25,816 bases of DNA from a virus. The position numbers were made by a program, and so were the translations under genes. The stretch covers positions 1 through 25,816 of the IMG/VR virus record IMGVR_UViG_3300044798_000065. One strand, written 5' to 3'. This document shows, piece after piece, positions 2-15,153 of this stretch. The notes beneath the pieces are model-generated. The model was not told where the DNA came from and ran no database searches. It saw only the letters and a program-made list of their open reading frames with translations. Each line of letters begins with the position of its first letter. The stretch's first letter is position 1.

Positions 2-568
2 TCTGTTCAAGGTACATCAGCGGAAAAATACAAACAAGTATCCGGCATTGATTTAGACTTTGACGAATTTGTATCTAACTTAAAATATTTTTATGAGCAT
101 AAAGCGCAGTGCCATGTGTATATAAAGATTGTTGATACAGTCTTAGACAGCAAAGAGGATGAACAAAAGTTTTATGACATATTCGGGGATATTTGCGATA
201 CCATAGGTATTGAAAAAACTGTTCCTATACACGGAGGCATAGACTTAAAAGAACGCTCAGAAACACAATTTGGGCTTCCCATACAAGATGTTAAAGTTTG
301 CCCACAGCCGTTTTTTCATTTACAGGTTAATTCTGACGGTCTATGCGTGCCCTGCTATTCTTTTGAGTATCCTCAAATTATGGGTAATGCGAACAAGGAA
401 AGTATTGTTGATATATGGAACGGTAAAAAGTTTACAGAATTTAGACGTAACATGTTAAACGGAAATAAGAATCCAGTCTGTCAAGATTGCAATATAATCA
501 AGTACCGCATGTTCCCCGAAGATAATTTAGAAAACGATATAGAGAGGTTGAAAAAACTTTATGAATAG
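2..568 (+). CDS. Radical SAM/SPASM domain protein, C-terminal part (5' end outside window)
   Basis: The frame is open from base 2 with no convincing start, so the N-terminal part, which would hold the CxxxCxxC radical-SAM cluster, lies upstream of the window. What remains has the look of a SPASM auxiliary Fe-S domain: a VCPQPF motif, then about 15 residues later DGLCVPCYSF, an 'IMGNANKESIVDIWN' stretch typical of SPASM proteins, and a closing CQDC. SPASM enzymes modify peptides or small molecules by radical chemistry; members also occur in glycan and O-antigen clusters, which fits the neighbours. The stop overlaps the next gene by 8 nt, so it is the upstream member of a plus-strand operon. 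Substrate unknown. SPASM identity fairly sure; the radical-SAM core is inferred, not seen. Confidence 0.75.
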   Translation, partial: SVQGTSAEKYKQVSGIDLDFDEFVSNLKYFYEHKAQCHVYIKIVDTVLDSKEDEQKFYDIFGDICDTIGIEKTVPIHGGIDLKERSETQFGLPIQDVKVCPQPFFHLQVNSDGLCVPCYSFEYPQIMGNANKESIVDIWNGKKFTEFRRNMLNGNKNPVCQDCNIIKYRMFPEDNLENDIERLKKLYE

Positions 569-1700
569 AAACTGCCCCATTTGTCAATGTGCAAGTAAAA
601 AAGTTTTATATACTCAAAAGTTCGGCAGTAAGGCAATATCCCTTATGGATAATTACGACGTTGTTGCGTGTAAAGATTGTGGTTTTGTATTCGCTGACAA
701 CATACCAAGCCAAAAGGAATTTGATAATTATTATGCCACTATGTCTAAATACGAAATTGATTACACTAATCAGAAACATAATAAAAAAATATTTGATTTT
801 ATAAGTGCCTACTTATTAAATGAAAATGCTCATATTTTAGATATAGGGTGTTCAACAGGCGGATTGTTAAAAGTATTTAGAGACAACGATTACAATAATC
901 TTTTTGGAATAGACCCTTCAATGGCGTGTGCTGAAAAAGCAAAAGGATTAAATATAGATGCTATTCAAAGTTCTTTGTTCCATTTTGTTCCTAAATATAA
1001 ATTTGATTTAATAATACTATCTGCTGTCCTCGAACACATAATCGACCTTAAAGGCGCAATGGAAAAACTTAAAACATTACTCAAGCCCAACGGTTTATTA
1101 TTTGTCGAGGTTCCTAATGCCGCAAGATTCCACAATCACATACACACACCTTTTCAACAATTCAGTATCGAACACATAAACTATTTTTCGCATTGGTCGT
1201 TAAGAAACTTAATGGAAAAATACAACTTTGAAAAACTAGCTATGTCTAATGAGCTTAACGAAGTCAATCAGTCTGTAGACCCTTGTATATTCTGGCTTGC
1301 TATTCACAAAGAATTTTCTATATTAAGAGATACAGTTAGCGAGGAAAACTTAAAAGGATATATAGAAAAAAGTAAAAGTAAAGATGTTGAAATTAAAAAG
1401 ACGATAGAAAAAAAATTAAAAAATCACGATAAGATTATTGTTTGGGGTGTTGGAACACACACACAGATGCTTTTAGGCAATGGTATTTTAGATTTAGATA
1501 AAGTATTTTGTTTTATCGATTCTAATAAAAATTATGACCAAAAAACTATCGAAGGAATAAAAATAGTTAATCCAGAAAGCCTACATCATATATTAACACC
1601 GCTGCCTATCTTAATATCCTCATGGAGTTATCAAAACGAAATTGCAGAACAAATAAGGAAAATGAAGCTTAAAAACGAGGTGATAAAGATTTATGAATAA
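561..1700 (+). CDS. Sugar C-methyltransferase-type SAM methyltransferase
   Basis: A 379-aa protein with the three-part layout of the TylC3/NovU-type sugar C-methyltransferases. An N-terminal zinc site uses C5, C8, C37 and C40 (CPIC...CKDC). A class I SAM-binding domain has motif I at 92-101 (ILDIGCSTGG) and FGIDPS for the acidic loop. The C-terminal part (about 290-379) starts with IIVWGVGTHTQ and resembles the Methyltransf_14 domain of this family. Known members methylate carbon 3 or 5 of 4-keto-deoxysugar nucleotides. Overlaps of 8 nt with the genes on both sides imply translational coupling. With the CDP-4-keto-3,6-dideoxyglucose genes nearby, a 4-keto sugar is a sensible substrate, but that link is inference. 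Family call strong, exact reaction unknown. Confidence 0.8.
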   Translation: MNRNCPICQCASKKVLYTQKFGSKAISLMDNYDVVACKDCGFVFADNIPSQKEFDNYYATMSKYEIDYTNQKHNKKIFDFISAYLLNENAHILDIGCSTGGLLKVFRDNDYNNLFGIDPSMACAEKAKGLNIDAIQSSLFHFVPKYKFDLIILSAVLEHIIDLKGAMEKLKTLLKPNGLLFVEVPNAARFHNHIHTPFQQFSIEHINYFSHWSLRNLMEKYNFEKLAMSNELNEVNQSVDPCIFWLAIHKEFSILRDTVSEENLKGYIEKSKSKDVEIKKTIEKKLKNHDKIIVWGVGTHTQMLLGNGILDLDKVFCFIDSNKNYDQKTIEGIKIVNPESLHHILTPLPILISSWSYQNEIAEQIRKMKLKNEVIKIYE

Positions 1701-2754
1701 CATCATCAAAGAAGATTTATCCGTTATTTATGGTTCTGATTTGAACTGGTCAGAATTTAAAAATAAGACTTTTTTAATTACAGGTTCAACGGGATTAATC
1801 AGTTCTTACCTTGTTTATACGTTGATGTACTTAAATAAAATCGACAATGCAAACATAAAGATTATAGCGCCTGTCCGTGACCTTTTAAAAATGTCCTCGA
1901 AGTTTTTTGAACTTTTAGGTAATAATAACTTTTTACCTGTTCTTTCGGATATATCAAGACATATGGTAGTAGACGGAAATATTGATTATATTATACATGC
2001 TGCCAGTCCGGCTGCTTCTAACCATTACGCTACTAATCCCTTAAGCGTATTTAATGCCAATGTTACAGCTACTAAGAACCTGCTTGAACTTGCAAAGGCT
2101 CATAATACTAAAAGATTTATGTTTGTAAGTTCGGGGGAAGTATCGGGTAAAATAACGGAAAATTCTTCCTGTCCTAATCATTATTTATCCGAGCTAGACA
2201 TTAACGAACTTGAATACGGCGAATTAGACCCATTAGAGCCACGCAATATATACGCCGAATCCAAACGTATGGGGGAAGCTCTTTGCGTTGCTTATACTAG
2301 GCAGTTTGGGATTAATACAGTAATCGTTCGGCCAGACCATACTTACAGTCCTACAATGGACTTAAAGAACGATAAAAGAGTATTTGCAGAATTTGTATCC
2401 AATATAGTTAATCACGAACCTATTAAATTAAAAAGTAATGGTTCTGCTACAAGAACTTTTACATATATTACCGATACTATCGACGGTATATTTAGGGTAT
2501 TATTAAAAGGTAACACTGCCGAAGCATATAATATCAGTAATGCTGCGGGCAGAACTTCTATACTTAATCTTGCCAATATGCTTGCGGATACTTTTAATAC
2601 TAAGGTTGTTTACGAAAAAAGAACAGGCGATTATATAGAGAATCCCGACACACAACGCCCAAGCCTTTGCACTGCCAAACTTGAGCAACTTGGATATAGA
2701 CCCAAGGTATTACTTAAAGAAGGGTTTTCAAGAACGGTAAAAAGTTTTCAATGA
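1693..2754 (+). CDS. NAD(P)-dependent epimerase/dehydratase/reductase (extended SDR)
   Basis: 353 aa, the usual length for an extended short-chain dehydrogenase acting on nucleotide sugars. The Rossmann motif is at 30-37 (TGSTGLIS); the third glycine of the canonical TGxxGxxG is replaced by Ser37. Catalytic residues appear as S146/S147 (FVSSGEV) and the YxxxK pair Y187/K191 (YAESK). YIIHAAS and a VRPDHTYSP stretch also fit the family. It resembles UDP-glucuronate decarboxylase or dTDP-glucose 4,6-dehydratase-like proteins of capsule clusters. Next to a C-methyltransferase it could be the 4-keto reductase or an epimerase that finishes the sugar; this is inference. Its stop overlaps the next start as ATGA. 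Confidence 0.8.
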   Translation: MNNIIKEDLSVIYGSDLNWSEFKNKTFLITGSTGLISSYLVYTLMYLNKIDNANIKIIAPVRDLLKMSSKFFELLGNNNFLPVLSDISRHMVVDGNIDYIIHAASPAASNHYATNPLSVFNANVTATKNLLELAKAHNTKRFMFVSSGEVSGKITENSSCPNHYLSELDINELEYGELDPLEPRNIYAESKRMGEALCVAYTRQFGINTVIVRPDHTYSPTMDLKNDKRVFAEFVSNIVNHEPIKLKSNGSATRTFTYITDTIDGIFRVLLKGNTAEAYNISNAAGRTSILNLANMLADTFNTKVVYEKRTGDYIENPDTQRPSLCTAKLEQLGYRPKVLLKEGFSRTVKSFQ

Positions 2755-2966
2755 AGACAATTATTGATGCGTGTTTTGAGGCACTTATAGATTTTTACCT
2801 TTTTCTTACTTATATTCCAGTTACGATAATTTTATTTCTTTATATGTGGCTTTATTTTTCGGCAGCATTATTTTTTAGAATGGTAGTATGTCAAGCCAAT
2901 GTAACTCGTGTAAGTATCAATTATAAAAAAGAAGGAAATCCAAATGCTAAAGACGTTGAAAACTGA
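2751..2966 (+). CDS. Small membrane protein of unknown function
   Basis: 71 aa. Residues about 10-46 are strongly hydrophobic (one long or two close membrane helices rich in F, L, I and Y), followed by a short polar, lysine-containing tail. The start overlaps the SDR stop as ATGA and the end overlaps the FkbM gene by 23 nt, so it is embedded in the operon and probably translated by coupling. I do not recognise a family. It could be a partner or membrane anchor for a glycan enzyme, but nothing in the sequence proves a role. Confidence 0.5.
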   Translation: MKTIIDACFEALIDFYLFLTYIPVTIILFLYMWLYFSAALFFRMVVCQANVTRVSINYKKEGNPNAKDVEN

Positions 2967-3810
2967 TTACGAAAAAGGAAATTTAAAGAAATATAGCTAC
3001 ATGCAATTAATGTATATGGAGCATAAAAAGCTTTATAGTTACGCTGACTATATTAAAAATACTAATTGCAAGAAAATAGAAATAGAAAACGGCGAAGTTA
3101 TTTTTACTTTCCTTAGCGAAGGTATGGAAATCAAAATGACTTCTATTCCTTTTGACCAAACAAGTGTTGCGTTTACTCATTTAGATTTTGGAGCATATGA
3201 TAAAGAGGAAACAAGCCTTCTTTGTAGATTAGTTCACGAAGGTGATGTTGTTTTAGATATAGGCGCAAACGCAGGCTGGTATAGTTTACACTGGCTTAAA
3301 AGAGGAGCTGAGGTTTTTTCTTTTGAACCCATGCCGCAAAATGTTAATTGTCTAAGCAGAAATATTGAACTAAACAAAATTAAAAAAGGGTTTCATATTT
3401 GGAACTGCGGATTATCGAATACGGTAGGCTATGCAGATTTTTGCTTTGACCTTGAACGCTGCGGAGCTTCCGGCCTTAAGAACATAAGGGAATCAAACAA
3501 CAACCAGAAAATATCTTGTCCGGTTGAAACACTAGATAACATAGCGCCAAGTTTGCATTTTAAGAAAATTGATTTTATTAAATGCGATGTTGAGGGAGCA
3601 GAAAAGCTTGTAATAGAGGGTGGACTTGAAACTATTAAAAAGTATAAGCCTATCATATACCTTGAGCTACTGAGGAAATGGTCGGCTAAATTTGGTTATC
3701 ATCCTAATGAAGTTATCAAAATATTAACCGATATAGGCTACCATTGCGACGTTGCAGAAATAACAGACGAAACAGAACAGACTAATTTTTTGTTTGTTCC
3801 AGAAAAGTAG
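2944..3810 (+). CDS. FkbM family SAM-dependent methyltransferase
   Basis: 288 aa. The SAM-binding motif lies at 103-111 (VLDIGANAG), followed by VFSFEPMPQN with the acidic ribose-binding residue. FIKCDVEGAE (about 213-222) and the final IIYLELL stretch are the usual FkbM signatures. FkbM enzymes O-methylate sugars or polyketides, so a sugar hydroxyl is the likely target here. The start is supported by a GAAGGA ribosome site 8-9 nt upstream. Last gene of the plus-strand operon: its 3' end overlaps the oppositely oriented rfbH gene by 29 nt, and I see no clear terminator there. Family secure, substrate unknown. Confidence 0.88.
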   Translation: MLKTLKTDYEKGNLKKYSYMQLMYMEHKKLYSYADYIKNTNCKKIEIENGEVIFTFLSEGMEIKMTSIPFDQTSVAFTHLDFGAYDKEETSLLCRLVHEGDVVLDIGANAGWYSLHWLKRGAEVFSFEPMPQNVNCLSRNIELNKIKKGFHIWNCGLSNTVGYADFCFDLERCGASGLKNIRESNNNQKISCPVETLDNIAPSLHFKKIDFIKCDVEGAEKLVIEGGLETIKKYKPIIYLELLRKWSAKFGYHPNEVIKILTDIGYHCDVAEITDETEQTNFLFVPEK

Positions 3811-4999
3811 AAATAATTTTTACAACGTATTCTTTTTGTTCCTGGGTTAATCCAGGATATACACCAATCCAGAAAGTATTATTCATAACATAATCAGAGT
3901 TTTCAAAATTACCGATAAATCTTTTATTTACTCCAACCATACAAGGGTGTTTAAGAATATTACCCGCAAACAAAGGTCGTGTCTGTATACCGTTATCTTC
4001 AAGGTGCTTAACTATCTGATTACGAGTAAATCCGGCATCGAGTTTTACTGTTAAAATAAATCCAAACCAGCTAGGATATGAAAGGAATTCAGCCTCTGGT
4101 AATATAAATTTATCCCTAAACTTGTTTAACTGCCTATGGTAATACAGCCAATTTTCTTTTCTGGCCTTTACAAAATCATAAAGCTTTTCAAGCTGTGCGC
4201 AACCTATTGCACCCTGAAATTCTGTAGCTTTCAAGTTATAACCAAGTCTTGAATATATATATTTATGGTCGTAGTTATATTGATTATCAAATCTATGCCC
4301 GCAAGCATTATCATGTCCAGACTGGCAAGTGCAATCGCGCCCCCAATCTCTTAATGATAAAATTATTTTATACAAAGTATCATTATTAGTATATAATGCT
4401 CCACCTTCGCCTGTTGTGATATGGTGTGCTGGATAAAAACTTGATGTTCCAATATCGCCGAAAGTACCTGTATATTGACCGTTATATTTACTACCTAAGC
4501 TATCGCAATTATCTTCGACCAACCATAAATTATGTTTATCACAAAATGTCTTAACTGCCTTTATATTAAAAGGATTACCCAAAGTATGAGCAATCATAAC
4601 AGCTTTGGTTCGATTAGATAACGCTTGTTCTAATAAAGTAACATCTATATTATATTCTGGTATTGTTATATCAACAAAGACAGGTATAGCGCCAAACTGT
4701 ATAATCGGAGCTATCGTAGTAGGGAAGCAGCAGGCAACCGTTATTACTTCATCACCCCTTTTAATCGCTTTTTCGCCTAACTCAGGCTGTGTCAGTGCCA
4801 TAAATGCAAGCAAATTGGCTGAACTGCCGGAATTAACCAGCGCACAATGTTTTATATTTAGTATAGCAGCGAGCTGTTTTTCAAATCTGTTGCAAAATTT
4901 ACCATGGGTAAGCCAGAAATCCTGAATTGCCTCTGCTAAATTTTCCTGTTCTCTTTGGTTATAGATACGTCCGGCATATGGAACTTTAATCACGTTCAT
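3782..4999 (-). CDS. rfbH: CDP-4-keto-6-deoxy-D-glucose 3-dehydratase (E1)
   Basis: 405 aa from the ATG at 4999, preferred over an in-frame TTG at 5008 because GAGGA lies just upstream of the ATG. PLP fold I (DegT/DnrJ/EryC1 family). The aminotransferase lysine is replaced by histidine in SFYPAHHITTGEGG (H192), the mark of the sugar 3-dehydrase E1. Cysteines 165, 223, 225 and 233 have the spacing C-X57-C-X1-C-X7-C known for the [2Fe-2S] site of E1. It removes the 3-OH of CDP-4-keto-6-deoxyglucose, together with a reductase E3 not seen here. About 28 aa shorter at the N-terminus than the enterobacterial enzyme as I recall it. Overlaps the rfbG stop by 14 nt; third gene of the ddhA-B-C order. 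Confidence 0.95.
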   Translation of the reverse strand: MNVIKVPYAGRIYNQREQENLAEAIQDFWLTHGKFCNRFEKQLAAILNIKHCALVNSGSSANLLAFMALTQPELGEKAIKRGDEVITVACCFPTTIAPIIQFGAIPVFVDITIPEYNIDVTLLEQALSNRTKAVMIAHTLGNPFNIKAVKTFCDKHNLWLVEDNCDSLGSKYNGQYTGTFGDIGTSSFYPAHHITTGEGGALYTNNDTLYKIILSLRDWGRDCTCQSGHDNACGHRFDNQYNYDHKYIYSRLGYNLKATEFQGAIGCAQLEKLYDFVKARKENWLYYHRQLNKFRDKFILPEAEFLSYPSWFGFILTVKLDAGFTRNQIVKHLEDNGIQTRPLFAGNILKHPCMVGVNKRFIGNFENSDYVMNNTFWIGVYPGLTQEQKEYVVKIISTFLEQTKN

Positions 5000-6017
5000 A
5001 ATCCTCAATTTGTTTTAAACATAACTCGTAAAGATTGTCGCCCTCTAAATAAACTTTGTACCAATCAATAGTTTTTTGCAAAGCTAATTCTATACACCAT
5101 TTAGAAGTCCAGCCAAGCTGAATTCGAGATTTAAAAGAATCTAGCTTTAAATATTTTGTTTCTTTTAAAGTATTATCTATTTTTATCTCGTATTTTGCTT
5201 TAAGTTGTTTACTGAATTTGTCAACTATATAACTCACGGAAATAGAATCGTCGATAGATGCTCCGAAATTCCACGCTTGAGCGTATTCAGTAGATTCATA
5301 TAATCTTTGTGCAAGTAACATATAGCCTGACAAAGGTTCAAGAACATGTTGCCATGGCCTTACTGAATCAGGATTGCGAATTATAACGGTTTCATTTTTT
5401 TGGACAGCCCTTATTAAATCTGGTATAATTCTGTCTTTTGCAAAATCCCCACCACCGATTACATTACCTGCTCTGGCTGTTGCTACAGGAAGGTTAAACG
5501 CCTCTCTATATGACTTTGTAACAAGCTCGGCGCATGCTTTGGAACTTGAATAAGGGTCATGACCGCCTAGCCTGTCTTTTTCTGTGTAACCTTTGGTTTG
5601 TTCTAAATTTTCATATACTTTGTCGGTTGTTACTATAATTATAGATTTGACATGTTTTGAGTGCCTACAAGCTTCAAGAATATTAACTGTACCCATAATA
5701 TTAGTTTCAAGTGTATGCGTAGGCTCGGCATAAGATTCTCTTACAATAGCATGGGCAGCCATGTGAATTACTATTTCATTATCCGCAAGAGCCTGTTTTA
5801 AAAATATTAGATTCCTAATATCGCCGATAAAAGTTGTATTGTTTTTTAAATCAAGAACATTAGCAAGTCTAAAAAGATTTGGTTCTGTAGGCGGCTGTAA
5901 TGAGTATCCTGTAACCTTAGCACCTAACCCGGTAAGCCATATAGTCAGCCATGCCCCTTTAAAGCCACTGGCTCCGGTAATTAAAACTTTTTTGCTATTC
6001 CAAAATTTTAAGTCCAT
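4986..6017 (-). CDS. rfbG: CDP-glucose 4,6-dehydratase
   Basis: 343 aa from the ATG at 6017; in-frame ATGs at 6026 and 6047 would add 3 or 10 residues. I chose 6017 because RfbG proteins start a few residues before the FW of 'KFW.SKKVLITG', and it gives only a 10-nt overlap with rfbF. Extended SDR: TGASGFKG at 14-21, VTTDKVYEN around 129-137 (T131, D132, K133), and YSSSK with Y156 and K160. The AGNVIGGGDFAKDRIIPD and RPWQHVLEPLSGY stretches are diagnostic for CDP-glucose 4,6-dehydratase. It converts CDP-glucose to CDP-4-keto-6-deoxyglucose in the cytosol, the second step of the pathway. Confidence 0.95.
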   Translation of the reverse strand: MDLKFWNSKKVLITGASGFKGAWLTIWLTGLGAKVTGYSLQPPTEPNLFRLANVLDLKNNTTFIGDIRNLIFLKQALADNEIVIHMAAHAIVRESYAEPTHTLETNIMGTVNILEACRHSKHVKSIIIVTTDKVYENLEQTKGYTEKDRLGGHDPYSSSKACAELVTKSYREAFNLPVATARAGNVIGGGDFAKDRIIPDLIRAVQKNETVIIRNPDSVRPWQHVLEPLSGYMLLAQRLYESTEYAQAWNFGASIDDSISVSYIVDKFSKQLKAKYEIKIDNTLKETKYLKLDSFKSRIQLGWTSKWCIELALQKTIDWYKVYLEGDNLYELCLKQIEDYERD

Positions 6018-6784
6018 AACTTCCATGGTGCTTTGCCAGTATTCCATAATTCTTCGAGATGATTTTTATCCCTTATTGTATCCATAGGAAACCAAAACCC
6101 TTGATGCTTGTAAGCTACAAGCTGATTATTATTTATAGCTTTATCCATAGGCTCATGTTCAAGAATTGTACTATCTCCGTCTATATAATCCAAAAATTCA
6201 GGCTCTACAACCATAAAACCGGAATTAACCCACAAATTATCACCTTTAGGCTTTTCCCTGAATCCTGTTATTAAATTATTTTCTGCTATATCAAGCGAAC
6301 CAAATCTGCCAGTAGGTTGCGAAGCTGTTACAGTAATTGTTTTTTTATTGGTATTATGAAAATTAAGCAAGTCAGGTATATTAACATCAGAAACACCGTC
6401 GCCATAAGTAAGCATAAACTTTTCATTGCCGATATACTTTTTAACACGTTTTAAACGACCTCCTGTCATTGTTTTTAATTCCGTATTCACCAAAGTGACC
6501 CGCCAGGGTTCAGCGGTTTGTGAGTGAATAATTTTTTTATCCTTAGAAGTAAAATCGAAAGTAACATCAGACTCATGCAAATAATAGTGGGCAAAGTATT
6601 CTTTAACATAATCCCCCTTATATCCAAGACAGATAATAAAATCGTTAAAGCCGTAATAGCTATATAATTTCATGATATGCCAGAGGACAGGTTTCCCGCC
6701 TATAGTAACCATTGGTTTAGGCTTTGTTTCTGTTTCCTCGCTTAATCTAGTACCTAGGCCACCAGCTAATATGATAACTTTCAT
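6008..6784 (-). CDS. rfbF: Glucose-1-phosphate cytidylyltransferase
   Basis: 258 aa, essentially the family length (about 257). The N-terminus shows the nucleotidyltransferase signature: LAGGLGTRL at 6-14 and KPKPM at 21-25. LTYGDGVSD carries the metal-binding aspartate, and ASQPTGRFG and FREKP follow as in RfbF/DdhA. It makes CDP-glucose from CTP and glucose-1-phosphate, the entry step of CDP-3,6-dideoxyhexose synthesis. The ATG overlaps the stop of the long spanin-like gene as ATGA and has no strong ribosome site of its own, so its translation is probably coupled to the phage lysis gene. This ties the sugar genes physically to the phage operon. Confidence 0.95.
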   Translation of the reverse strand: MKVIILAGGLGTRLSEETETKPKPMVTIGGKPVLWHIMKLYSYYGFNDFIICLGYKGDYVKEYFAHYYLHESDVTFDFTSKDKKIIHSQTAEPWRVTLVNTELKTMTGGRLKRVKKYIGNEKFMLTYGDGVSDVNIPDLLNFHNTNKKTITVTASQPTGRFGSLDIAENNLITGFREKPKGDNLWVNSGFMVVEPEFLDYIDGDSTILEHEPMDKAINNNQLVAYKHQGFWFPMDTIRDKNHLEELWNTGKAPWKLWT

Positions 6785-7224
6785 TTAATGTACCGTAGTC
6801 CTATTAAAGCGGCTGAACCAATAACAACCCATATACAACGCCCCCGCCATTTAGAAATGTCAGCGTCTTTGCGTTTAACAACATCTTCAAAATCCGTTTT
6901 TATACTTGTCAAATCTATCTTGTATTGTTCTCGCTCTGCTGTTACTTGATTCAATTTGTTTTGTAAGTCCGTCAACATCAGAGGATATACTTTGACTTTG
7001 TTGTTTAATGCTATCAACGATTTTTTGGATATCGTTATATCGTTGAGTAATTTCAGATTCTCGTTTGATTGCAGAATCCAGTTTTGATTGCAAGTCTCTA
7101 GTCTTGTCTCGCACGACACTATCGGTGTTGCTGTTACCCCACCAATATCCGATTGTGCAAATAATGCAAAAGACAACAACATAAAAAATAATATTACTAA
7201 TAATTTTTCTGTTTTTATCCACAT
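6781..7224 (-). CDS. Spanin-like membrane protein, long frame (signal sequence, coiled coil, C-terminal helix)
   Basis: 147 aa. An N-terminal hydrophobic stretch at about 8-24 ends in FALFAQSD, a possible signal-peptidase I site; no lipobox cysteine is visible. Two cysteines (SCETRLETC) come next, then a helical, probably coiled-coil middle, and a second hydrophobic segment close to the C-terminus (CIWVVIGSAALIGL). That plan recalls unimolecular spanins, which bridge the outer and inner membranes at lysis, but without the lipid anchor. The start follows the 26-aa peptide's stop (TAA, T, ATG), and the stop overlaps rfbF as ATGA. A second frame, starting at a GTG 2 nt downstream, encodes an Rz-like protein within the same DNA. 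Role inferred from layout and position. Confidence 0.65.
   Translation of the reverse strand: MWIKTEKLLVILFFMLLSFALFAQSDIGGVTATPIVSCETRLETCNQNWILQSNENLKLLNDITISKKSLIALNNKVKVYPLMLTDLQNKLNQVTAEREQYKIDLTSIKTDFEDVVKRKDADISKWRGRCIWVVIGSAALIGLRYIK
6887..7222 (-). CDS. Rz-like inner-membrane spanin, embedded in another frame
   Basis: 111 aa starting with GTG, 2 nt after the ATG of the longer frame (ATGTG) and lying fully inside it. It has the textbook i-spanin plan: a short basic N-terminus (MDKNRK), one membrane helix at about 8-28, then a long periplasmic part rich in K, E, Q, S, D and R, with heptad-like spacing and no proline. Both frames would share the same GGGG ribosome site. Nested spanin genes are known (lambda Rz/Rz1), although there the embedded frame is the lipoprotein. 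Position just after endolysin and holin candidates supports a lysis role. The non-ATG start and complete overlap keep confidence moderate. Confidence 0.55.
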   Translation of the reverse strand: MDKNRKIISNIIFYVVVFCIICTIGYWWGNSNTDSVVRDKTRDLQSKLDSAIKRESEITQRYNDIQKIVDSIKQQSQSISSDVDGLTKQIESSNSRARTIQDRFDKYKNGF

Positions 7225-8703: not shown

Positions 8704-9729
8704 TTATGTTTCTAAAAACTCTATTAAATCCTTTATATAGTATTCGTGAACTCTACCACCTGCCCCCACACCTGTAGGGTCGTCTCCTCCATAAGATATA
8801 TTAATTCCTAACCCTTCAAGATAAGTTCTCATTTGTTGTAAGCTATAATTGTGTAGGCCAGACTCATAATGATTCCGACAAAGGCGTATATTTATCCCTT
8901 TACTAACTCCTACTTGCACAAGATGTGCAAGCTCAATTCCTGATGTCTCGTATCTTTTATCCGTCGTAACAACATCAGGGTCTTGCGCTGTCCATGCGGG
9001 TGCGAAATATCCAGCGATGTAAGCTTTTTTCAAATTAGCCCTTGAATTAATTAGATAATGATACATTCTTTGTGCGCCACCAGATAAACCCATGCCGTAT
9101 ATTTTATCAAAATTTAATAATAACGCTTTTTCAACAATCATCGTATCTTCTAAAGTATGTAATATTGTGTCTTTCGGTAAAATAGTATAAGAACTTTCAC
9201 TTAAGCCAGCGGTGTTATAACTATCATCGTAAGTAATGATTTCATATCCCATAGGCGCTATTCTTGCCAAAATTTTAGCTTCTGCATATCCTCCTAACCC
9301 AGTTAACCCCATAGACAATTTTGATGGATAATCTCCAAAATGTCCGTTTATATTAAAAATAACTTTCCCTTGACCTGCGTCTACATTAATATGATAGGCA
9401 ACTATGGTTTTGGTACCAGACGTGATTGTATATTTTTTTACAATTGACCTTATAGCTCTTTGAAATCCTATTGTATAAGTCTCCGTAGAAATATTTTCTA
9501 TAACAGGGGCTTTATTAATATTTAAAAGACTGTTATATAAACTTTTTATTTCATCTACGGTTTTAGTTGATATTGCTTTTACGCCACCTGCTGCTTGTAA
9601 TTCTGCTAATCCTTTTGCTAAAGTCCAATTATTATTTGAAGGTCTTAAAACTTCATTTAATGTTGCAATATCATAATCAAGATTGTTACTATAAAAAAGG
9701 GGCAAAAAAGAGATAAAGCAATTAGCCAT
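8704..9729 (-). CDS. Predicted alpha/beta-hydrolase next to tail fibre (possible receptor esterase)
   Basis: 341 aa. Residues 212-220 (GMGLSGGAQ) form a nucleophile elbow of type GxSxG with S216 the likely catalytic serine. NGHFGD at 128-133 may supply the oxyanion hole, and H328 near the end (GGRVHEYY) with an upstream aspartate (D316/D317) could complete the triad. That order fits the alpha/beta-hydrolase fold. The first 75 residues are separate from this core and may attach it to the virion. It starts directly after the large fibre gene (TAA, A, ATG). Position suggests a tail-associated esterase or deacetylase acting on surface polysaccharide. Fold likely, substrate unknown, virion location inferred. 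Confidence 0.6.
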   Translation of the reverse strand: MANCFISFLPLFYSNNLDYDIATLNEVLRPSNNNWTLAKGLAELQAAGGVKAISTKTVDEIKSLYNSLLNINKAPVIENISTETYTIGFQRAIRSIVKKYTITSGTKTIVAYHINVDAGQGKVIFNINGHFGDYPSKLSMGLTGLGGYAEAKILARIAPMGYEIITYDDSYNTAGLSESSYTILPKDTILHTLEDTMIVEKALLLNFDKIYGMGLSGGAQRMYHYLINSRANLKKAYIAGYFAPAWTAQDPDVVTTDKRYETSGIELAHLVQVGVSKGINIRLCRNHYESGLHNYSLQQMRTYLEGLGINISYGGDDPTGVGAGGRVHEYYIKDLIEFLET

Positions 9730-9730
9730 T

Positions 9731-12172
9731 TTAAAAAATTGTTTGACTTTCTAATTCTAACGAACCAGCAAGCCTTACCCCTGTATAATTCCCACCTGAC
9801 CATATTGTTATTGTATTCGCATTAGGGTCTGGAGAACCAGTCATCCAAGTTCCTCCAGAATTATCGCCAAATAAGGGAACATAATTACCAGATACATTTT
9901 TAAAGACGACACCTGTAATTGCTATTACGCCATTACCGGAAGCCGTTGAAGAGCCAAAAGCTCCTATTATTTTTAAATCTTCTAAAAACAAAGCAGCCGT
10001 TAGAGCTTCCAATCTTACATAAGCTATGGCTCTAGTCGTTGTCCAATTTGTACCGCCAGAACTATAACTAACTGTTGGATTAAAAATTTGACTTTGTTGT
10101 ATTTTTCCTTCAACCATTTTCCATGTAGCATTTGCCGTTGTTCCTCTAAGTTCTACAGTGCCACCAGGTACTATATAAATAGGAGCATTAGTTGATAGAC
10201 TATCAATAGTATCGCCCGAAGCTGGGTAAACCGTAGCTATCTTTACACCGTTATTAATAACTCTAATTTTATAATTTAAAGCAAAAGCAGCGGGCAAAGT
10301 AACACCATAATTAGACGTTGCACACATCGTAATTATATTAATATTTGAGGTTAAAGAAACTGCGCCTTGTCCGTTACCTGCTGTAATACTGTCTGTTAAT
10401 GTATCCGACCCAGTAGCCAAGCCGTCACTTAATGCTTTTTCTGTAACAGCCAAAACTTGTGAAGTTCCAGAATAACTATTAGAAAGTTGCACAGCCCCTT
10501 TAACCGAGGTTGTAGCATCAGCAATAGATATTACAGCAGCCCCGCCTATGACTTGTCTTGTTTGGTCAAGCGCAATAGGACTTGTGGCGGTTAGATTTCC
10601 TTTTGTTAAGCTTGGCTCATAGGTAGCAGTATCAAGAGCAAAAGTATTAGCCGAAGTCATTTTTACAAAAGCAGTTGCAGAATAACTAAGAGCCGCAAGG
10701 GAAGTAAGGTTGCTTGATAAAGTTTGATAACTTCCTGCTGCCTGAAAATCAGTTGCAGCATGAGTTGATGCAGTACCCAATCCATGAACAGAAGTTCCGG
10801 TAAGCCCTATATGTGTTGTTAAATTTGATTGTACTGCCGAAGCTGCTCCAGATACATCAAAAGCCGTATATGCGTAAGTAGCAGCACTTCCTAATACAGT
10901 TGTGTCTAAGGCGAAAGTTCCGGTAGCGGTCATTTTAACAAATGATACCGAAGCAAACGACAAAGCAGATAATGAGGTTAAATTTGCATGAGCTGTCTGA
11001 TAACTTCCAGCAGGTTGCTTGCTATTAAATACATTCCAATCCGTTGAAGTTAAATAACCGTCTAAGCTTGCCGAAGCTGCGCCAAGCTTTGATTTGATTG
11101 TCGCCTGTGTTTCATCGCCTGTGTTAATTCCAGACAAACTGGCTAAAGATGTTTTCTGAGCGTCAGTAATATATCGTTTGTCTAAAGAATCCGCAATATC
11201 GGCTGTTGTTGCATCAACGCCAGCGGTTACAAGTCCTTTAGCATCGTAGGTAATTTTAGTATGGACTCCTGGCGTTATAACAATATTCGAAGCAACCTTA
11301 AGGCTTAATTGGTCGGATACAAGCTTTGCGCTTGGATATTGTACGTCTGTAGGAGAACTGAAAGCCACAACCTTATTAGCTGAATTTTCCGACGTATATC
11401 CTAAAGCCGCTTGCTTAGAATTAAATATAGTCCAGTCAGTTGATAGTAAATACCCGTTTTGCGTACCCGAAGCCTGTTTAACATTTATTGTAGTTCCACT
11501 ACCAATTACTGCATTTGCACCGCCAGTTATTGTTAAAACCGTACTACCCGATTCGGTTAAGTTACCTTTTGTCAAAGTAGGTTCATAGCTTCCGGAAGGT
11601 TGCGCTCCAATGTCCGCAGGCGTTAAAGTAATGTTGGCTATTAAAGCTTTCCCGTTGATTTGGCGTGAGGTAGGAACATAAGCCGATAAATCCTGGTCGC
11701 CTGTATTTGAACCGCTTAAAGTAGTAATCCCAAGCTTTGTCTTGATACTTGTTAAGGTTTCATCGCCTGTATTTACGCCAGTGGTATTGCTCAACTTAAC
11801 AAGGTCTAAGTCGGTGACAAAGCGTTTGTCTGTATAATCAATTATATTTGCCGAAGTAGAGCAATCAATATTTGGCACATTACCAAGTCCTATATCGGTT
11901 TTAGTTAGTACAACATCAGCACTTAAAGGGTGACTATTTATCGTCCTTATTAAATTAACTTTGACATCTAACGCTGTTTGTAAATCAGTCTGATTAGCAA
12001 GAGAGCCTATAATATGCCCCCATTCTATTTCAGGCAAAATGCCCGGTTGTGTCGGCTCTGTACCAAAAAGATATTTTTCAATACTTTCATCCGGCGCAAA
12101 ATATTCCGTAGGCGCTGATTCGCTAGGAGTCGGTGTAGTACTAAATAAATATTCTTTTATTGTATCAGCCAA
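9731..12172 (-). CDS. Large repetitive tail fibre protein
   Basis: 813 aa, low in charge and rich in S, T, A, G and N, as in trimeric fibres. Many internal repeats: INTGDE/SNTGDQ at about 133, 155 and 349; YEPTLTKGNLT at 196 and YEPSLTKGNLT at 519; and a longer pair, GSYQTAHANLTSLSALSF (389) and GSYQTLSSNLTSLAALSY (480), each followed by FVKMT and TFALDT. The N-terminus holds a duplicated element, KEYLFSTTPT and EKYLFGTEPT, possibly for baseplate attachment. The last 150 residues (from about 660) are non-repetitive and probably form the receptor-binding tip. No S74 chaperone is seen at the end. It is followed by the predicted hydrolase. Confidence 0.85.
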   Translation of the reverse strand: MADTIKEYLFSTTPTPSESAPTEYFAPDESIEKYLFGTEPTQPGILPEIEWGHIIGSLANQTDLQTALDVKVNLIRTINSHPLSADVVLTKTDIGLGNVPNIDCSTSANIIDYTDKRFVTDLDLVKLSNTTGVNTGDETLTSIKTKLGITTLSGSNTGDQDLSAYVPTSRQINGKALIANITLTPADIGAQPSGSYEPTLTKGNLTESGSTVLTITGGANAVIGSGTTINVKQASGTQNGYLLSTDWTIFNSKQAALGYTSENSANKVVAFSSPTDVQYPSAKLVSDQLSLKVASNIVITPGVHTKITYDAKGLVTAGVDATTADIADSLDKRYITDAQKTSLASLSGINTGDETQATIKSKLGAASASLDGYLTSTDWNVFNSKQPAGSYQTAHANLTSLSALSFASVSFVKMTATGTFALDTTVLGSAATYAYTAFDVSGAASAVQSNLTTHIGLTGTSVHGLGTASTHAATDFQAAGSYQTLSSNLTSLAALSYSATAFVKMTSANTFALDTATYEPSLTKGNLTATSPIALDQTRQVIGGAAVISIADATTSVKGAVQLSNSYSGTSQVLAVTEKALSDGLATGSDTLTDSITAGNGQGAVSLTSNINIITMCATSNYGVTLPAAFALNYKIRVINNGVKIATVYPASGDTIDSLSTNAPIYIVPGGTVELRGTTANATWKMVEGKIQQSQIFNPTVSYSSGGTNWTTTRAIAYVRLEALTAALFLEDLKIIGAFGSSTASGNGVIAITGVVFKNVSGNYVPLFGDNSGGTWMTGSPDPNANTITIWSGGNYTGVRLAGSLELESQTIF

Positions 12173-12176
12173 ATTT

Positions 12177-12443
12177 TTATACTCCCTGTTTAGCCTCAGA
12201 CTCTTTTGTTTTCATAGCCAGATAGAGGCTGAACTGTTTATCGTAAGTTATCTTTTTTATTTTATCTATCGGTATAGCCTCGTAAACATCTTCTGCGGTA
12301 GTGTAATTATACATTCCATTAAGTACACTATGGGCTACTTCGTTAAAGTTTTCCTCTGATTTATCCCAGTAGATAATCTTAACCCCCCAAAATTTAGGCA
12401 ATCCTACTACTTCTTGAATCGATTCATTTGTAATTTGGTTCAT
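12177..12443 (-). CDS. Unknown 88-aa protein upstream of the tail fibre
   Basis: 88 aa, mixed charge, no membrane segment or known motif. The N-terminal third (VVGLPKFWGVKIIYWDKSEENF) is followed by helical-looking sequence. An AGGGGG site 5 nt before the ATG supports translation, and it ends 4 nt before the fibre start, which suggests coupling. Since the moron interrupts the operon just upstream, it may need its own promoter or read-through from the right. It could be a fibre chaperone or connector; the function cannot be read from the sequence. Confidence 0.6.
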   Translation of the reverse strand: MNQITNESIQEVVGLPKFWGVKIIYWDKSEENFNEVAHSVLNGMYNYTTAEDVYEAIPIDKIKKITYDKQFSLYLAMKTKESEAKQGV

Positions 12444-12475
12444 AAATCCCCCTGTAAAATCATATAGTTATAATT

Positions 12476-12497
12476 TATCAGAAAAATATCAGAAAAA
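12476..12497 (+). repeat. Two perfect tandem copies of an 11-bp A-tract repeat
   Basis: TATCAGAAAAA occurs at 12476-12486 and again at 12487-12497, ending 1 bp before the -35 hexamer of the moron promoter. The 11-bp period is close to one helical turn, so the A-tracts lie on one DNA face. This could be an UP element, a bend or a pair of operator half-sites. Confidence 0.7.
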
Positions 12498-12498
12498 C

Positions 12499-12528
12499 TT
12501 GACAAGGATGCCCTTCCTGTGGTACTAT
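12499..12528 (+). promoter_or_regulatory. Sigma-70 type promoter of the plus-strand moron
   Basis: TTGACA at 12499-12504 matches the -35 consensus exactly, and TACTAT at 12523-12528 matches 5 of 6 -10 positions, with an 18-bp spacer. The start point would fall near 12535. It points away from the phage operon and towards the 110-aa gene, so these two genes can be transcribed independently of the late operon. Confidence 0.75.
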
Positions 12529-12536
12529 TATAGGTA

Positions 12537-12550
12537 GGTTGAGGGCAGAG
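12537..12550 (+). repeat. Left arm of a long-range inverted repeat in the moron leader
   Basis: GGTTGAGGGCA (12537-12547) is the exact reverse complement of 12908-12918. Adding 12548-12550 extends the plus-strand RNA pairing to 14 bp with one G-U pair. It lies at the predicted 5' end of the transcript, just before the AGGAAGG ribosome site of the first gene. Confidence 0.7.
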
Positions 12551-12565
12551 AAAGGAAGGACGACA

Positions 12566-12898
12566 ATGACAAGAATCGAAAAAATCAATGAAATGCTTAA
12601 GAACTTTGATTGCTCGATTACACTTCATCACAGTTACGAAAACGAGTTTGAAACAGGAATTGTTACAGCCACAGTAAGTCTTGATTCTATCAACTATGCT
12701 ATTATCGCAAAAACATTTAAGAGACAGGACGTCATAATGAAACTTAGATTCCTGGAGATTACAGACTCTAACGGCAATTTTCTTAGCGAGCAAGCTCTTG
12801 CAAAATTGCAAATCAAAACTGAAACGCACCAAATTGAGGACAAAATTTACACAAAACTTGCAAAGCTTGCTGAATCTGTCCACGAAAGGATTATCTAA
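12566..12898 (+). CDS. Unknown 110-aa moron protein
   Basis: 110 aa from the ATG at 12566, with AGGAAGG 6 nt upstream; an in-frame TTG at 12539 is ignored because it precedes this site and sits in the inverted-repeat arm. Soluble, mixed charge, no signal peptide, no clear helix-turn-helix. The middle alternates hydrophobic and polar residues (TGIVTATVSLDSINYAII), suggesting a beta-sheet, and the C-terminal third is helical (KIYTKLAKLAESVHERI). It runs opposite to the surrounding tail genes and has its own promoter, the definition of a moron. The lipoprotein gene follows 35 nt after its stop. Function unknown; a role in lysogenic conversion or defence is inference. Confidence 0.7.
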   Translation: MTRIEKINEMLKNFDCSITLHHSYENEFETGIVTATVSLDSINYAIIAKTFKRQDVIMKLRFLEITDSNGNFLSEQALAKLQIKTETHQIEDKIYTKLAKLAESVHERII

Positions 12899-12904
12899 AT
12901 AACC

Positions 12905-12918
12905 CTTTGCCCTCAACC
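12905..12918 (+). repeat. Right arm of the long-range inverted repeat, before the lipoprotein ribosome site
   Basis: CTTTGCCCTCAACC pairs with the leader arm at 12537-12550. It lies a few nt before the AAAGGAGG site of the lipoprotein gene. A weaker local hairpin (CCTTT at 12904-12908 with AAAGG at 12922-12926) would cover that site and excludes the long-range pairing, so a switch is conceivable. Confidence 0.6.
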
Positions 12919-12933
12919 AAAAAAGGAGGCTAC

Positions 12934-13167
12934 ATGAAGAGAATTTTAATTGTTTTGGAATTAAGTTTAATGGCTGTCGCTTGCGGGCAGGCGCCTGACT
13001 GTGATGATTGTATAAGCGTATATCTTTCTTGTAAACCTGAGTATTTATCAACATATGGAGGAGCATGCGGTATTGTAAACGAAGAAACTGTAGCAACTTG
13101 CAAAGAAGAAAACGGACAGTATTATAGAATAAGAAAAATAGACCCACGGGAACCTGACAAGTTTTAA
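12934..13167 (+). CDS. Small cysteine-rich predicted lipoprotein (moron)
   Basis: 77 aa from the ATG at 12934, with AAGGAGG 5 nt upstream; an in-frame TTG at 12907 is not used. The N-terminus MKRILIVLELSLMAVAC is a short signal sequence ending in AVAC, a near-lipobox with the lipidated cysteine at 17. Five more cysteines (positions about 22, 25, 32, 46 and 56) in a 60-residue secreted domain suggest disulphides, and thus a periplasmic or outer-membrane location. Small phage lipoproteins of this build (Llp of T5, Cor of phi80-type phages) block the receptor against superinfection; I infer a similar role from location and shape, not from sequence likeness. Confidence 0.7.
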   Translation: MKRILIVLELSLMAVACGQAPDCDDCISVYLSCKPEYLSTYGGACGIVNEETVATCKEENGQYYRIRKIDPREPDKF

Positions 13168-13194
13168 ATAATATATAAAAAATAAAAATAACCA

Positions 13195-13818
13195 TTACTT
13201 AATCCTTCTATACGCCCTGTTTCTTATGGAGCGGGGTTGTATAGATTGAGTTGCTGAACCACTAGTTTGAGAATAAACATCAACTGTACCCGTGCCTAAT
13301 GTACCTGTGCCTCCCGAAACGGGGGAATAATGACTATAGTTACCAGAGGCATAATTAGGGCTGGGAAATTGAATACCTTGGGTAACAGTATTAGACATAT
13401 TGCCATAATCATTAATAGCAAAATGATAAAAAAATGCAGTAGTATTATTCCATTTAGCTACAGCATGACTATGTGCTAAATCCACCTGATGCGAGGCATT
13501 ACCCACAACCGAAGTTGCGGCATAAGCCATAGAGATAATATCCCCAGCAGCTTCCGTTCCGTACCCAACAACGTATCTATTCGACATGTCCTCAAGAACT
13601 TTTCCGTTGTATACAGACGCAGGGTCAGATATTGTTTGCCCGTTGTGAGCCGCCCAATAAGCAGAATCAACAGTATTGACACCGTTTAGGTCGTCAAACC
13701 AAAGTAAAGAGCCAACTGGTACTAAAGCATCAACCTTAGCTATTAACGCCGTTAATATCGCAAAATTACCGTTTAAATCAGAACTTCCTAGTTTTTCCAA
13801 ATAAGACCAAACTTTCAT
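13195..13818 (-). CDS. Collar-type tail fibre / receptor-binding protein
   Basis: 207 aa. The N-terminus (KVWSYLEKLGSSDLNGNFAILTALIAKVDAL) is helical, for trimerisation or attachment. VPVGSLLWFDDL then starts a collar-like domain with HNGQTISDP at about 79-87, NRYVVGYG near 105 and QVDLAHSHAV near 132. The C-terminus QSIQPRSIRNRAYRRIK is typical of short fibres, where the histidine pair can bind metal. It follows the DUF2612-like wedge gene, the usual place for fibre genes. Its 3' end faces the plus-strand moron with only 27 nt between. Confidence 0.8.
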   Translation of the reverse strand: MKVWSYLEKLGSSDLNGNFAILTALIAKVDALVPVGSLLWFDDLNGVNTVDSAYWAAHNGQTISDPASVYNGKVLEDMSNRYVVGYGTEAAGDIISMAYAATSVVGNASHQVDLAHSHAVAKWNNTTAFFYHFAINDYGNMSNTVTQGIQFPSPNYASGNYSHYSPVSGGTGTLGTGTVDVYSQTSGSATQSIQPRSIRNRAYRRIK

Positions 13819-13828
13819 ATTTTATCTC

Positions 13829-14371
13829 CTATATTAACGTAACATTATAAGTAACACTACAGCCTGAAGGTACGCCAAACCATTTGTTGTCTAAGGAAAC
13901 CAAAGCAACATATAACCAATAAGCAGCAGAGTTTGTAATAAAAGTTAAATTTATAGTTAGTGTCTTTATACCTTCCGTAATTTGTATAACGGGAGGAACA
14001 ACAGTTTTATTCCAAACATTATACATATAATCTAAACTTTTAACTTGAGCAATATTTCTTAAAATTCTTGCTTTAAGCAATGCTCTTAAAACTGTATCAT
14101 TAATCGGAGAACTTGCTCCGTCTAATTGGTCAGTTCCGTCGAGCAAAGAAAAATCTAATATAAATGCTGTACCAACTTGTACATAACTCCTCGGAACATT
14201 AAATAAATCCGCAAGCTGCGTAAGCCAGTCACCAACAGCATTGTCAATGTCCAAAAACCTTAATAAATCTTCCGGTGAACCAGCAGCAACAACAGCATAC
14301 AGCGAATCTAAAAACCTATTAAAGTTTTGAGAGTTACGATATTGATATAACATGCGGCTTTTTTTGTTCAT
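13829..14371 (-). CDS. DUF2612-like baseplate wedge protein
   Basis: 180 aa. WLTQLADLFNVPR near 49-61, followed by VLRALLKARILRNIAQVKSLDYMYNVW, is typical of DUF2612 / gpI-like proteins, which link the baseplate wedge to the fibres. The C-terminal half is a beta-rich domain (IKTLTINLTF). The start overlaps the HNH gene stop by 4 nt. In related contractile phages it directly follows baseplate J; here the homing endonuclease separates the two. Confidence 0.8.
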   Translation of the reverse strand: MNKKSRMLYQYRNSQNFNRFLDSLYAVVAAGSPEDLLRFLDIDNAVGDWLTQLADLFNVPRSYVQVGTAFILDFSLLDGTDQLDGASSPINDTVLRALLKARILRNIAQVKSLDYMYNVWNKTVVPPVIQITEGIKTLTINLTFITNSAAYWLYVALVSLDNKWFGVPSGCSVTYNVTLI

Positions 14372-15153
14372 TTCGACTTGCCTTTATAATTCTTAGTCTT
14401 ACTATGACATATTTTACATAAAGTTATTCCATTATTAATATCCCACATTGGCTTATACATCATACTAGCTTCAAATAAATTAAACAAAGGGATATTGTCT
14501 TTTGCTTCTTGTATTAATTCTGAAAAAGCTTTAACATGATGAGCTTCCAAATATCCCCCTCTTTTTTTGCAACTTTGACATGTAAAATTATCTCTATTAA
14601 AAACTTCTTGTTTCCACTTTCGATATTCAAAAGAATGTCTTATTTTTTTAGTTAAAGGAGTTATGCCTCCTTTCCAAAATGAACATTTTGCCCCTTTTCG
14701 TTCTCTTAGTTTTTTTATTGCTTCTTTAGATAATTTTTTACCTAGATGTGATTTTATTAATTTTTCTATTGTTTTTTGATTTGGATGTCTTCCTGTTAGT
14801 TTTTGTCTTGTTATTTCTGGACATGGTTTCCCCTTACGTGCTTCACTCATTTTTTTTAAAGATTCTTCTGAATTTTTTCTTCCTTTGTTTGCTATAAATA
14901 TTTTATTTTTAAGTTCTTCGTTCATTGTTTTACCAAACATAGGATTACCTGAACCTTTATATTTTTCACTTAGTTCCTTTTTCTGTTTTTCTGTCCATAT
15001 TCTTTTAGAAGGGTGACAGCCGCACGATTTGTATCTTAACCCATTGTGTAAATATCTTTCTACTTCCTTTTTACAAACAGGACACAAAAACAAACCTACA
15101 GAATTATTTCTACCATAAATAAATTTAGTTCCTAATTCTTTTATTAATTCCAT
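14368..15153 (-). CDS. NUMOD3/HNH homing endonuclease, free-standing
   Basis: 261 aa, lysine-rich (about one residue in five) and unlike its neighbours in composition. The N-terminus has a Cys4 knuckle (C24, C27, C44, C46). The middle carries several NUMOD3-like DNA-binding repeats (GNPMFGK, KGRKNSEESLKKMSEARKGK, TGRHPNQKTIEKL). The C-terminus is an HNH nuclease: FNRDNFTCQSC, LEAHHVKAF, NNGITLCKICHSKT, with the two HxH-region histidines and a CxxC...CxxC zinc site. It sits between baseplate J (10 nt away) and the DUF2612-like gene (4-nt overlap) without visibly breaking either, as expected for a selfish intergenic endonuclease. Its recognition site is unknown. Confidence 0.9.
   Translation of the reverse strand: MELIKELGTKFIYGRNNSVGLFLCPVCKKEVERYLHNGLRYKSCGCHPSKRIWTEKQKKELSEKYKGSGNPMFGKTMNEELKNKIFIANKGRKNSEESLKKMSEARKGKPCPEITRQKLTGRHPNQKTIEKLIKSHLGKKLSKEAIKKLRERKGAKCSFWKGGITPLTKKIRHSFEYRKWKQEVFNRDNFTCQSCKKRGGYLEAHHVKAFSELIQEAKDNIPLFNLFEASMMYKPMWDINNGITLCKICHSKTKNYKGKSK

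Follow-up and report, generated by a model that had tools for sequence, protein, structure and literature searches.

Among the closest described counterparts of the locus analysed here is the llp gene of phage T5 (lytic conversion lipoprotein), a gene of 234 bp or 77 codons that has a promoter of its own, lies opposite to the receptor-binding gene oad and is annotated as inactivating the receptor FhuA. The structure of the Llp-FhuA complex revealed that Llp binds from the periplasmic side and that the outer loops change, which prevents binding of the phage (PMC9586334). A second system is Rtp45, a protein of 76 amino acids assigned to PHROG 4281, an LptD-directed exclusion lipoprotein, whose gene forms a two-gene unit together with rtp44 that faces the fibre gene rtp43. 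In the Rtp45-LptDE structure, Rtp45 is located on the periplasmic side and the outer loops are altered, thereby leading to a loss of phage binding (PMC12685063). In the mEpimmI phages, lipoproteins of several sequence types, which are encoded in structural clusters, exclude phages using their own receptors (PMC11893012). Since these lipoproteins fall into several sequence types, exclusion is repeatedly accomplished by small lipoproteins with little common sequence. Accessory genes with their own expression, such as the morons of the lambda lom/bor type and the P2 Z/fun type, are found near tail or lysis genes.

A plus-strand cassette within a contractile-tail operon

The window, that is the whole stretch of DNA analysed here, is the 25.8-kb virus record IMGVR_UViG_3300044798_000065 (positions 1 to 25,816). 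It carries a contractile-tail operon on the minus strand, in which the major head protein, sheath, baseplate hub, baseplate J and fibre were recognized by profile matches. The operon is interrupted by two plus-strand genes, referred to as g1 and g2. The features of the locus are:

9731 to 12172, minus strand: 813-aa tail fibre (phrog_17472 at 6e-8; Phage_fiber_2 repeat)
12177 to 12443, minus strand: 88-aa protein with no assigned function, next tail-operon gene past the cassette, between g1 and the 813-aa fibre
12440 to 13195, minus strand: 251-codon open frame antisense to g1-g2, running from the TAATG at the stop of the 207-aa gene to the ATGA at the start of the 88-aa gene
12499 to 12528, plus strand: predicted sigma-70-type promoter, TTGACA-18-TACTAT with a TG extended -10, predicted transcription start about 12535-12537
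12537 to 12550, plus strand: 5' arm GGTTGAGGGCAGAG of a 14-bp inverted repeat, at the predicted mRNA 5' end
12566 to 12898, plus strand: g1, encoding an orphan protein of 110 aa, with the Shine-Dalgarno AAGGAAGG and atypical codon usage
12905 to 12918, plus strand: 3' arm CTTTGCCCTCAACC of the 14-bp inverted repeat, beginning 7 nt past the g1 stop and ending 5 nt before the g2 Shine-Dalgarno
12934 to 13167, plus strand: g2, 77-aa Cys-rich protein, predicted to be exported and a probable lipoprotein, strong Shine-Dalgarno AAGGAGG, signal MKRILIVLELSLMAVA before C17, six Cys
13195 to 13818, minus strand: 207-aa protein of fibre- or collar-like look, without a family match; the tail gene directly upstream of the cassette

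The initial annotation placed the two genes between two tail fibre genes, which describes the locus only loosely: the 813-aa fibre is found on one side, but the 88-aa gene intervenes, and the 207-aa protein was judged fibre- or collar-like by eye only. For the genes compared, the order of the tail genes is the same as in Elizabethkingia phage EKP1, whose proteins are only about 25% identical to those of the window and which has no g1-g2-like cassette between the DUF2612, baseplate wedge and fibre-assembly genes. The phage is remote: its baseplate J and sheath proteins are around 22-28% identical to the best-covered known-phage records, and searches for closer phages via the sheath, baseplate J, the 207-aa gene and a 341-aa gene yielded either known phages at about 25% identity or no match. 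The loci of these distant tail-gene relatives contain nothing like g1 or g2.

Further genes were observed along the operon. A NUMOD3/HNH homing endonuclease gene (14368-15153, minus strand) is inserted between the baseplate J and DUF2612 genes. The 341-aa protein (8704-9729, minus strand), which follows the fibre gene, has GLSGG (GxSxG) and NGH motifs and looks like an alpha/beta-hydrolase by eye; family and PDB searches gave no match for it, and it is a possible candidate for a tail-borne esterase acting on a surface sugar.

The presence of an Rz-like spanin (6890-7222, minus strand; E 6.5e-6) points to a host that has an outer membrane. The spanin gene is almost fully overlapped by a 147-aa frame (6781-7224, minus strand) with a signal-like start and a C-terminal hydrophobic segment, and the overlapping frames are possibly an embedded spanin pair. 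Positions 116-6784 contain genes that were assigned to surface-sugar metabolism by eye, namely the C-terminal part of a radical SAM protein, methyltransferases, an epimerase and a CDP-sugar set like RfbF/RfbG/RfbH; a role of this block in serotype conversion is possible. The nearest relatives of RfbH are mostly found in gut and rumen Clostridia and a Methanosphaera bin (up to 63%). Tail relatives were absent from 14 of the genomes with RfbH matches and only distant or absent in two sampled phyla, and no host was found by either route.

Coding evidence, promoter and relatives of g1 and g2

With a codon model derived from the tail genes of the window, g1 and g2 scored +0.06 and +0.08 bits per codon, respectively, whereas every other frame of the same DNA scored negative. 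The residue make-up of both is that of real proteins, unlike that of antisense shadows. The ribosome sites reach -7.8 kcal/mol for g1 (AAGGAAGG-ATG) and -11.6 kcal/mol for g2 (AAGGAGG-ATG), the latter being matched by only 0.5% of all ATGs. The exact promoter pattern occurs once in the window, compared to 0.02 occurrences expected from shuffling, and the site is the second best among all sites in the 25.8 kb; under a general sigma-70 score, chance alone would yield about one site of this quality in a sequence of that length. The putative promoter is thus good but unproven, and it is convincing through its position, because it is placed just upstream of g1 and points into it. The codon statistics, the promoter-like sequence and the Shine-Dalgarno sequences support the earlier proposal of two genes that run against the operon with their own promoter and ribosome sites.

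The term moron, under which the pair had been described, suits its layout and the promoter seen in the sequence; however, a terminator-like site was looked for 3' of g2 and none was detected, so the pair is not a textbook case. The lambda lom/bor and P2 Z/fun morons, compared here by placement and expression, share a similar placement and their own expression with g1-g2, which differs from them by the missing detectable terminator. Taken together, g1-g2 is a real accessory cassette, whose sequence is new and whose plan is familiar.

The codon usage of g1 is atypical. Eight of its ten leucine codons are CTT and none is TTA, the commonest leucine codon of the tail genes. Compared to the tail genes, its usage has a z of -2.9, a value close to the limit of what the phage's own genes show (g2: z = 0.6), and the deviation goes beyond leucine and serine, as z is -3.1 without these two. 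A foreign origin of g1 would account for part of the improbable openness of the minus-strand frame described below.

No relatives of g1 were found in viral contigs, genome contigs, phage records, plasmid records, Pfam, NCBIfam, PADLOC or the PDB, and its best match among the PHROGs was weak (37272, E = 0.007), a family without known function. Likewise, no relatives of g2 were found in viral contigs, phage records, plasmids (best E 0.4), Pfam, PHROGs, NCBIfam, PADLOC or the PDB. The record scans used short exact peptides and reach close relatives only; records very near the window were excluded, and genome contigs were scanned with g1 alone. At the sensitivity of these scans, and only there, g1 and g2 are orphans. 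The exact 5' leader sequence of the cassette is also absent from all other viral contigs searched. Structure models built without alignments were too poor to use (pLDDT 52 for g1 and 50 for g2), and a fold search with the g1 model returned nothing at E<=0.001. The suggestion that the 110-aa protein is a regulator or a toxin/immunity factor received no support from these searches.

Export signal and cysteines of g2

The g2 protein consists of MKRILIVLELSLMAVA followed by CGQAPDCDDCISVYLSCKPEYLSTYGGACGIVNEETVATCKEENGQYYRIRKIDPREPDKF, with a predicted cut before C17. Six cysteines in 77 residues are improbable at the cysteine rate of the phage (P = 3e-5), and a filter for a signal plus a relaxed lipobox, which g2 passes, is passed by only 7 of 2639 random open reading frames (0.27%), two of these with six cysteines. 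Because of both observations, g2 is likely exported. Its lipobox, M-A-V-A-C, fits the relaxed pattern; however, it fails the strict pattern [LVI][ASTVI][GAS]C as well as PROSITE PS00013 (no D/E/R/K in the six preceding residues), both as coded here, because of the alanine at position -3 and Glu9 in the h-region. As coded, T5 Llp passes both patterns, whereas Rtp45, a known lipoprotein, fails the four-residue strict form and passes PS00013. Lipidation of g2 is therefore probable, though not secure, and AVA before the cysteine could alternatively be a signal peptidase I site. Of the secreted six-cysteine lipoprotein that had been proposed, the length, the export signal and the cysteines stand; the lipobox, on whose presence the proposal had been made to depend, is found in the relaxed form and not in the canonical one, which makes lipidation weaker than assumed.

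Comparison with known exclusion lipoproteins

T5 Llp and g2 both comprise 77 amino acids, begin with a short export signal and are encoded behind a promoter of their own (predicted in the case of g2), opposite to a receptor-binding tail gene in T5 and to neighbouring fibre-like genes in the window. However, g2 has six cysteines instead of three, lacks a canonical lipobox, is preceded by a second gene and is located inside the tail operon, whereas T5 llp lies at the edge of an operon. Rtp45 resembles g2 in its length (76 vs. 77 aa), in containing cysteines and in belonging to a two-gene unit opposite to a neighbouring fibre gene; it differs in that it has three cysteines, and its partner rtp44, a 311-aa membrane protein, is encoded after the lipoprotein gene, whereas g1 precedes g2. 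The exclusion lipoproteins Lpp021 and Lpp010 of the mEpimmI phages (PMC11893012), which are set beside g2 here by description and not by sequence, likewise have a position in a structural cluster, but the strict lipobox that was used to find them is not matched by g2.

In terms of sequence, BLASTP gave no alignment between g2 and T5 Llp at E<=100 and no similarity to Rtp45, and g2 had no match at E<=1 to phrog_1119 (Cor superinfection exclusion protein, Llp/Cor family), a profile that recognizes T5 Llp at 1.1e-19 and Rtp45 at 0.0098. In terms of build, g2 has what characterizes the Llp/Cor proteins, namely around 75-80 amino acids, an N-terminal export signal and cysteines able to form a disulphide, and as regards layout, it has a promoter-like site and fibre-like neighbours, which are candidates for receptor binding. 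The Llp-like build noted by the initial annotation thus holds for size, signal, cysteines and layout, down to the exact codon number of llp, and does not extend to sequence similarity with Llp or Rtp45 or to a phrog_1119 match. g2 thus appears to share the working plan of Llp, but by sequence it belongs to neither the Llp/Cor nor the Rtp45 family.

An inverted repeat around g1

The 14-bp inverted repeat that brackets g1 is predicted to form an RNA helix of 14 bp with one G-U pair and -25 kcal/mol, which has a pairing probability of 0.94-1.0 in the folded transcript. No other gene of the 37 exceeds 8 exact complementary bases between its flanks. The chance of such a flanking repeat ranges from 1.7e-4 (shuffles) to 8e-4 (random window pairs) per gene, corresponding to about 0.6-3% over the window, and inverted repeats of this length at unspecified places are not rare in the window. 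The statistics are suggestive of a non-random flanking repeat and are not proof. The helix may couple the two genes by hindering ribosome loading on g2 unless ribosomes that end g1 open it. Transposon ends or an invertible segment were set aside as explanations of the repeat; a target duplication was not seen by eye, and no recombinase was recognized.

Proposed role of the cassette and alternative explanations

Our tentative preference, which falls short of an even chance, is that g1-g2 is an accessory cassette encoding a lipoprotein with an Llp-like mode of action. Owing to its own promoter, the cassette would be expressed while the late minus-strand operon is silent, that is during early infection or, if the phage is temperate, in the lysogen. 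The g2 protein would be exported, cut before Cys17 and probably lipidated, and its other five cysteines could form periplasmic disulphides. In line with the receptor blocking that the initial annotation found attractive, it might then act from the periplasmic side on the outer-membrane receptor that the adjacent fibre proteins employ, rendering this receptor unusable for further phage. As g1 would be translated first, it may set the level of g2: the mRNA 5' end would pair before the g2 ribosome site, forming a helix that ribosomes arriving at the end of g1 would open. Later, read-through of the tail operon could produce RNA antisense to the cassette and thereby silence it, which would fit a cassette active prior to the late stage. 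Several observations count against an Llp-like function, including the absence of any sequence, profile or usable structural link to exclusion proteins, the non-canonical lipobox, the six rather than three cysteines and the fact that it leaves g1 unexplained. Furthermore, the O-antigen-type genes suggest dealings with surface sugars, for which a periplasmic receptor blocker would help less.

The same genes bear on the main rival, host-envelope conversion, according to which g2 is an envelope lipoprotein that alters the fitness or surface of the host, as lambda Bor or Lom do, and leaves the phage's own receptor untouched. The layout is the same as that of any moron, sugar-nucleotide and O-antigen-type genes are located in the same window, and the codon usage of g1 is atypical; however, the fibre-adjacent position and the close match to T5 llp in size and layout are not specifically predicted by such a role, which we regard as somewhat unlikely. 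Alternatively, g1 might be the functional product, for instance an anti-defence or takeover protein, and g2 its envelope-side partner without any exclusion. In line with this, g1 is the first and longer gene and is the one bracketed by the inverted repeat, but four libraries gave no family match for it beyond the weak PHROG, and its fold model is unusable, which renders this explanation distinctly unlikely.

The long-range 5' pairing recalls the fold-back regulation in type I toxin mRNAs and, together with the arrangement of two small genes under their own promoter, could speak for a small toxic/immunity envelope peptide pair of the toxin/antitoxin or bacteriocin type. Such a pair is improbable, as Pfam, PADLOC and NCBIfam yielded no toxin or defence family match. 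As a small exported Cys-anchored protein, g2 could also be thought of as the missing outer-membrane subunit (Rz1-like) of the Rz-like protein at 6890-7222, which has no obvious lipoprotein partner. However, Rz1 partners are normally embedded in or adjoin Rz (PMC3091744), whereas g2 is located 5.7 kb away on the opposite strand behind its own promoter and is Cys-rich and not Pro-rich; a spanin subunit is thus very improbable.

The minus-strand frame opposite to the cassette

The 251-codon frame on the minus strand has a Shine-Dalgarno of -5.5 kcal/mol and is far longer than the longest random open reading frame in 25.8 kb (mean 102 codons, maximum 151 in 60 simulations). Its codon score of -0.37 per codon is like that of antisense shadows of real genes, its synonymous-codon z is -7.3, its residues are shadow-like with one glutamate in 250, and no match to the PHROGs was found. 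Because it resembles an antisense shadow in both codons and residues, the frame is not an ordinary gene. The idea that it is a real operon gene and the plus-strand frames its artefacts is the least credible of all, since it accounts for the exactly filled gap from TAATG to ATGA, the Shine-Dalgarno and the length, but is contradicted by codon score, z, residues and the missing PHROG match and would make two plus-strand genes, a promoter, two Shine-Dalgarnos and a signal peptide all accidental.

When g1 was recoded synonymously 20,000 times with the codon usage of the tail genes, its in-register antisense frame never stayed open; with that of the sugar genes, it did so in 0.05%. The parts opposite to g2 and the leader are open by chance in 1-3% and 9% of cases, respectively. 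Given the codon bias of g1, the remaining chance of an open minus frame is about 0.002, a product of simulated values. The frame is either open by chance or held open for late ribosomes to cross the insert. As a guess, TAATG may formerly have been the start of the 88-aa gene and have been separated from it by the insertion.

It is tempting, though a long shot, to combine both strands in one mechanism, in which the mRNA 5' end clamps the stretch upstream of g2, so that g2 is made only during translation of g1, and the 251-codon frame is kept open on the other strand as a bridge. Coming from the upstream tail gene, ribosomes would enter the bridge through stop-start coupling at TAATG and leave it by ATGA into the next gene. 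In this way, ribosomes on the late mRNA could cross the insert, sparing the fibre and lysis genes Rho-dependent polarity. If true, such a bridge frame would be a general solution for every opposite-strand moron and would explain how cassettes can reside inside a late operon without loss of the downstream genes.

If g2 excludes phages, it would be another unrelated protein with the job of Llp and Rtp45, with twice their cysteines and from a lineage far from the coliphages, in which proteins of this kind are known. This would strengthen the view that layout outpredicts sequence for exclusion function.
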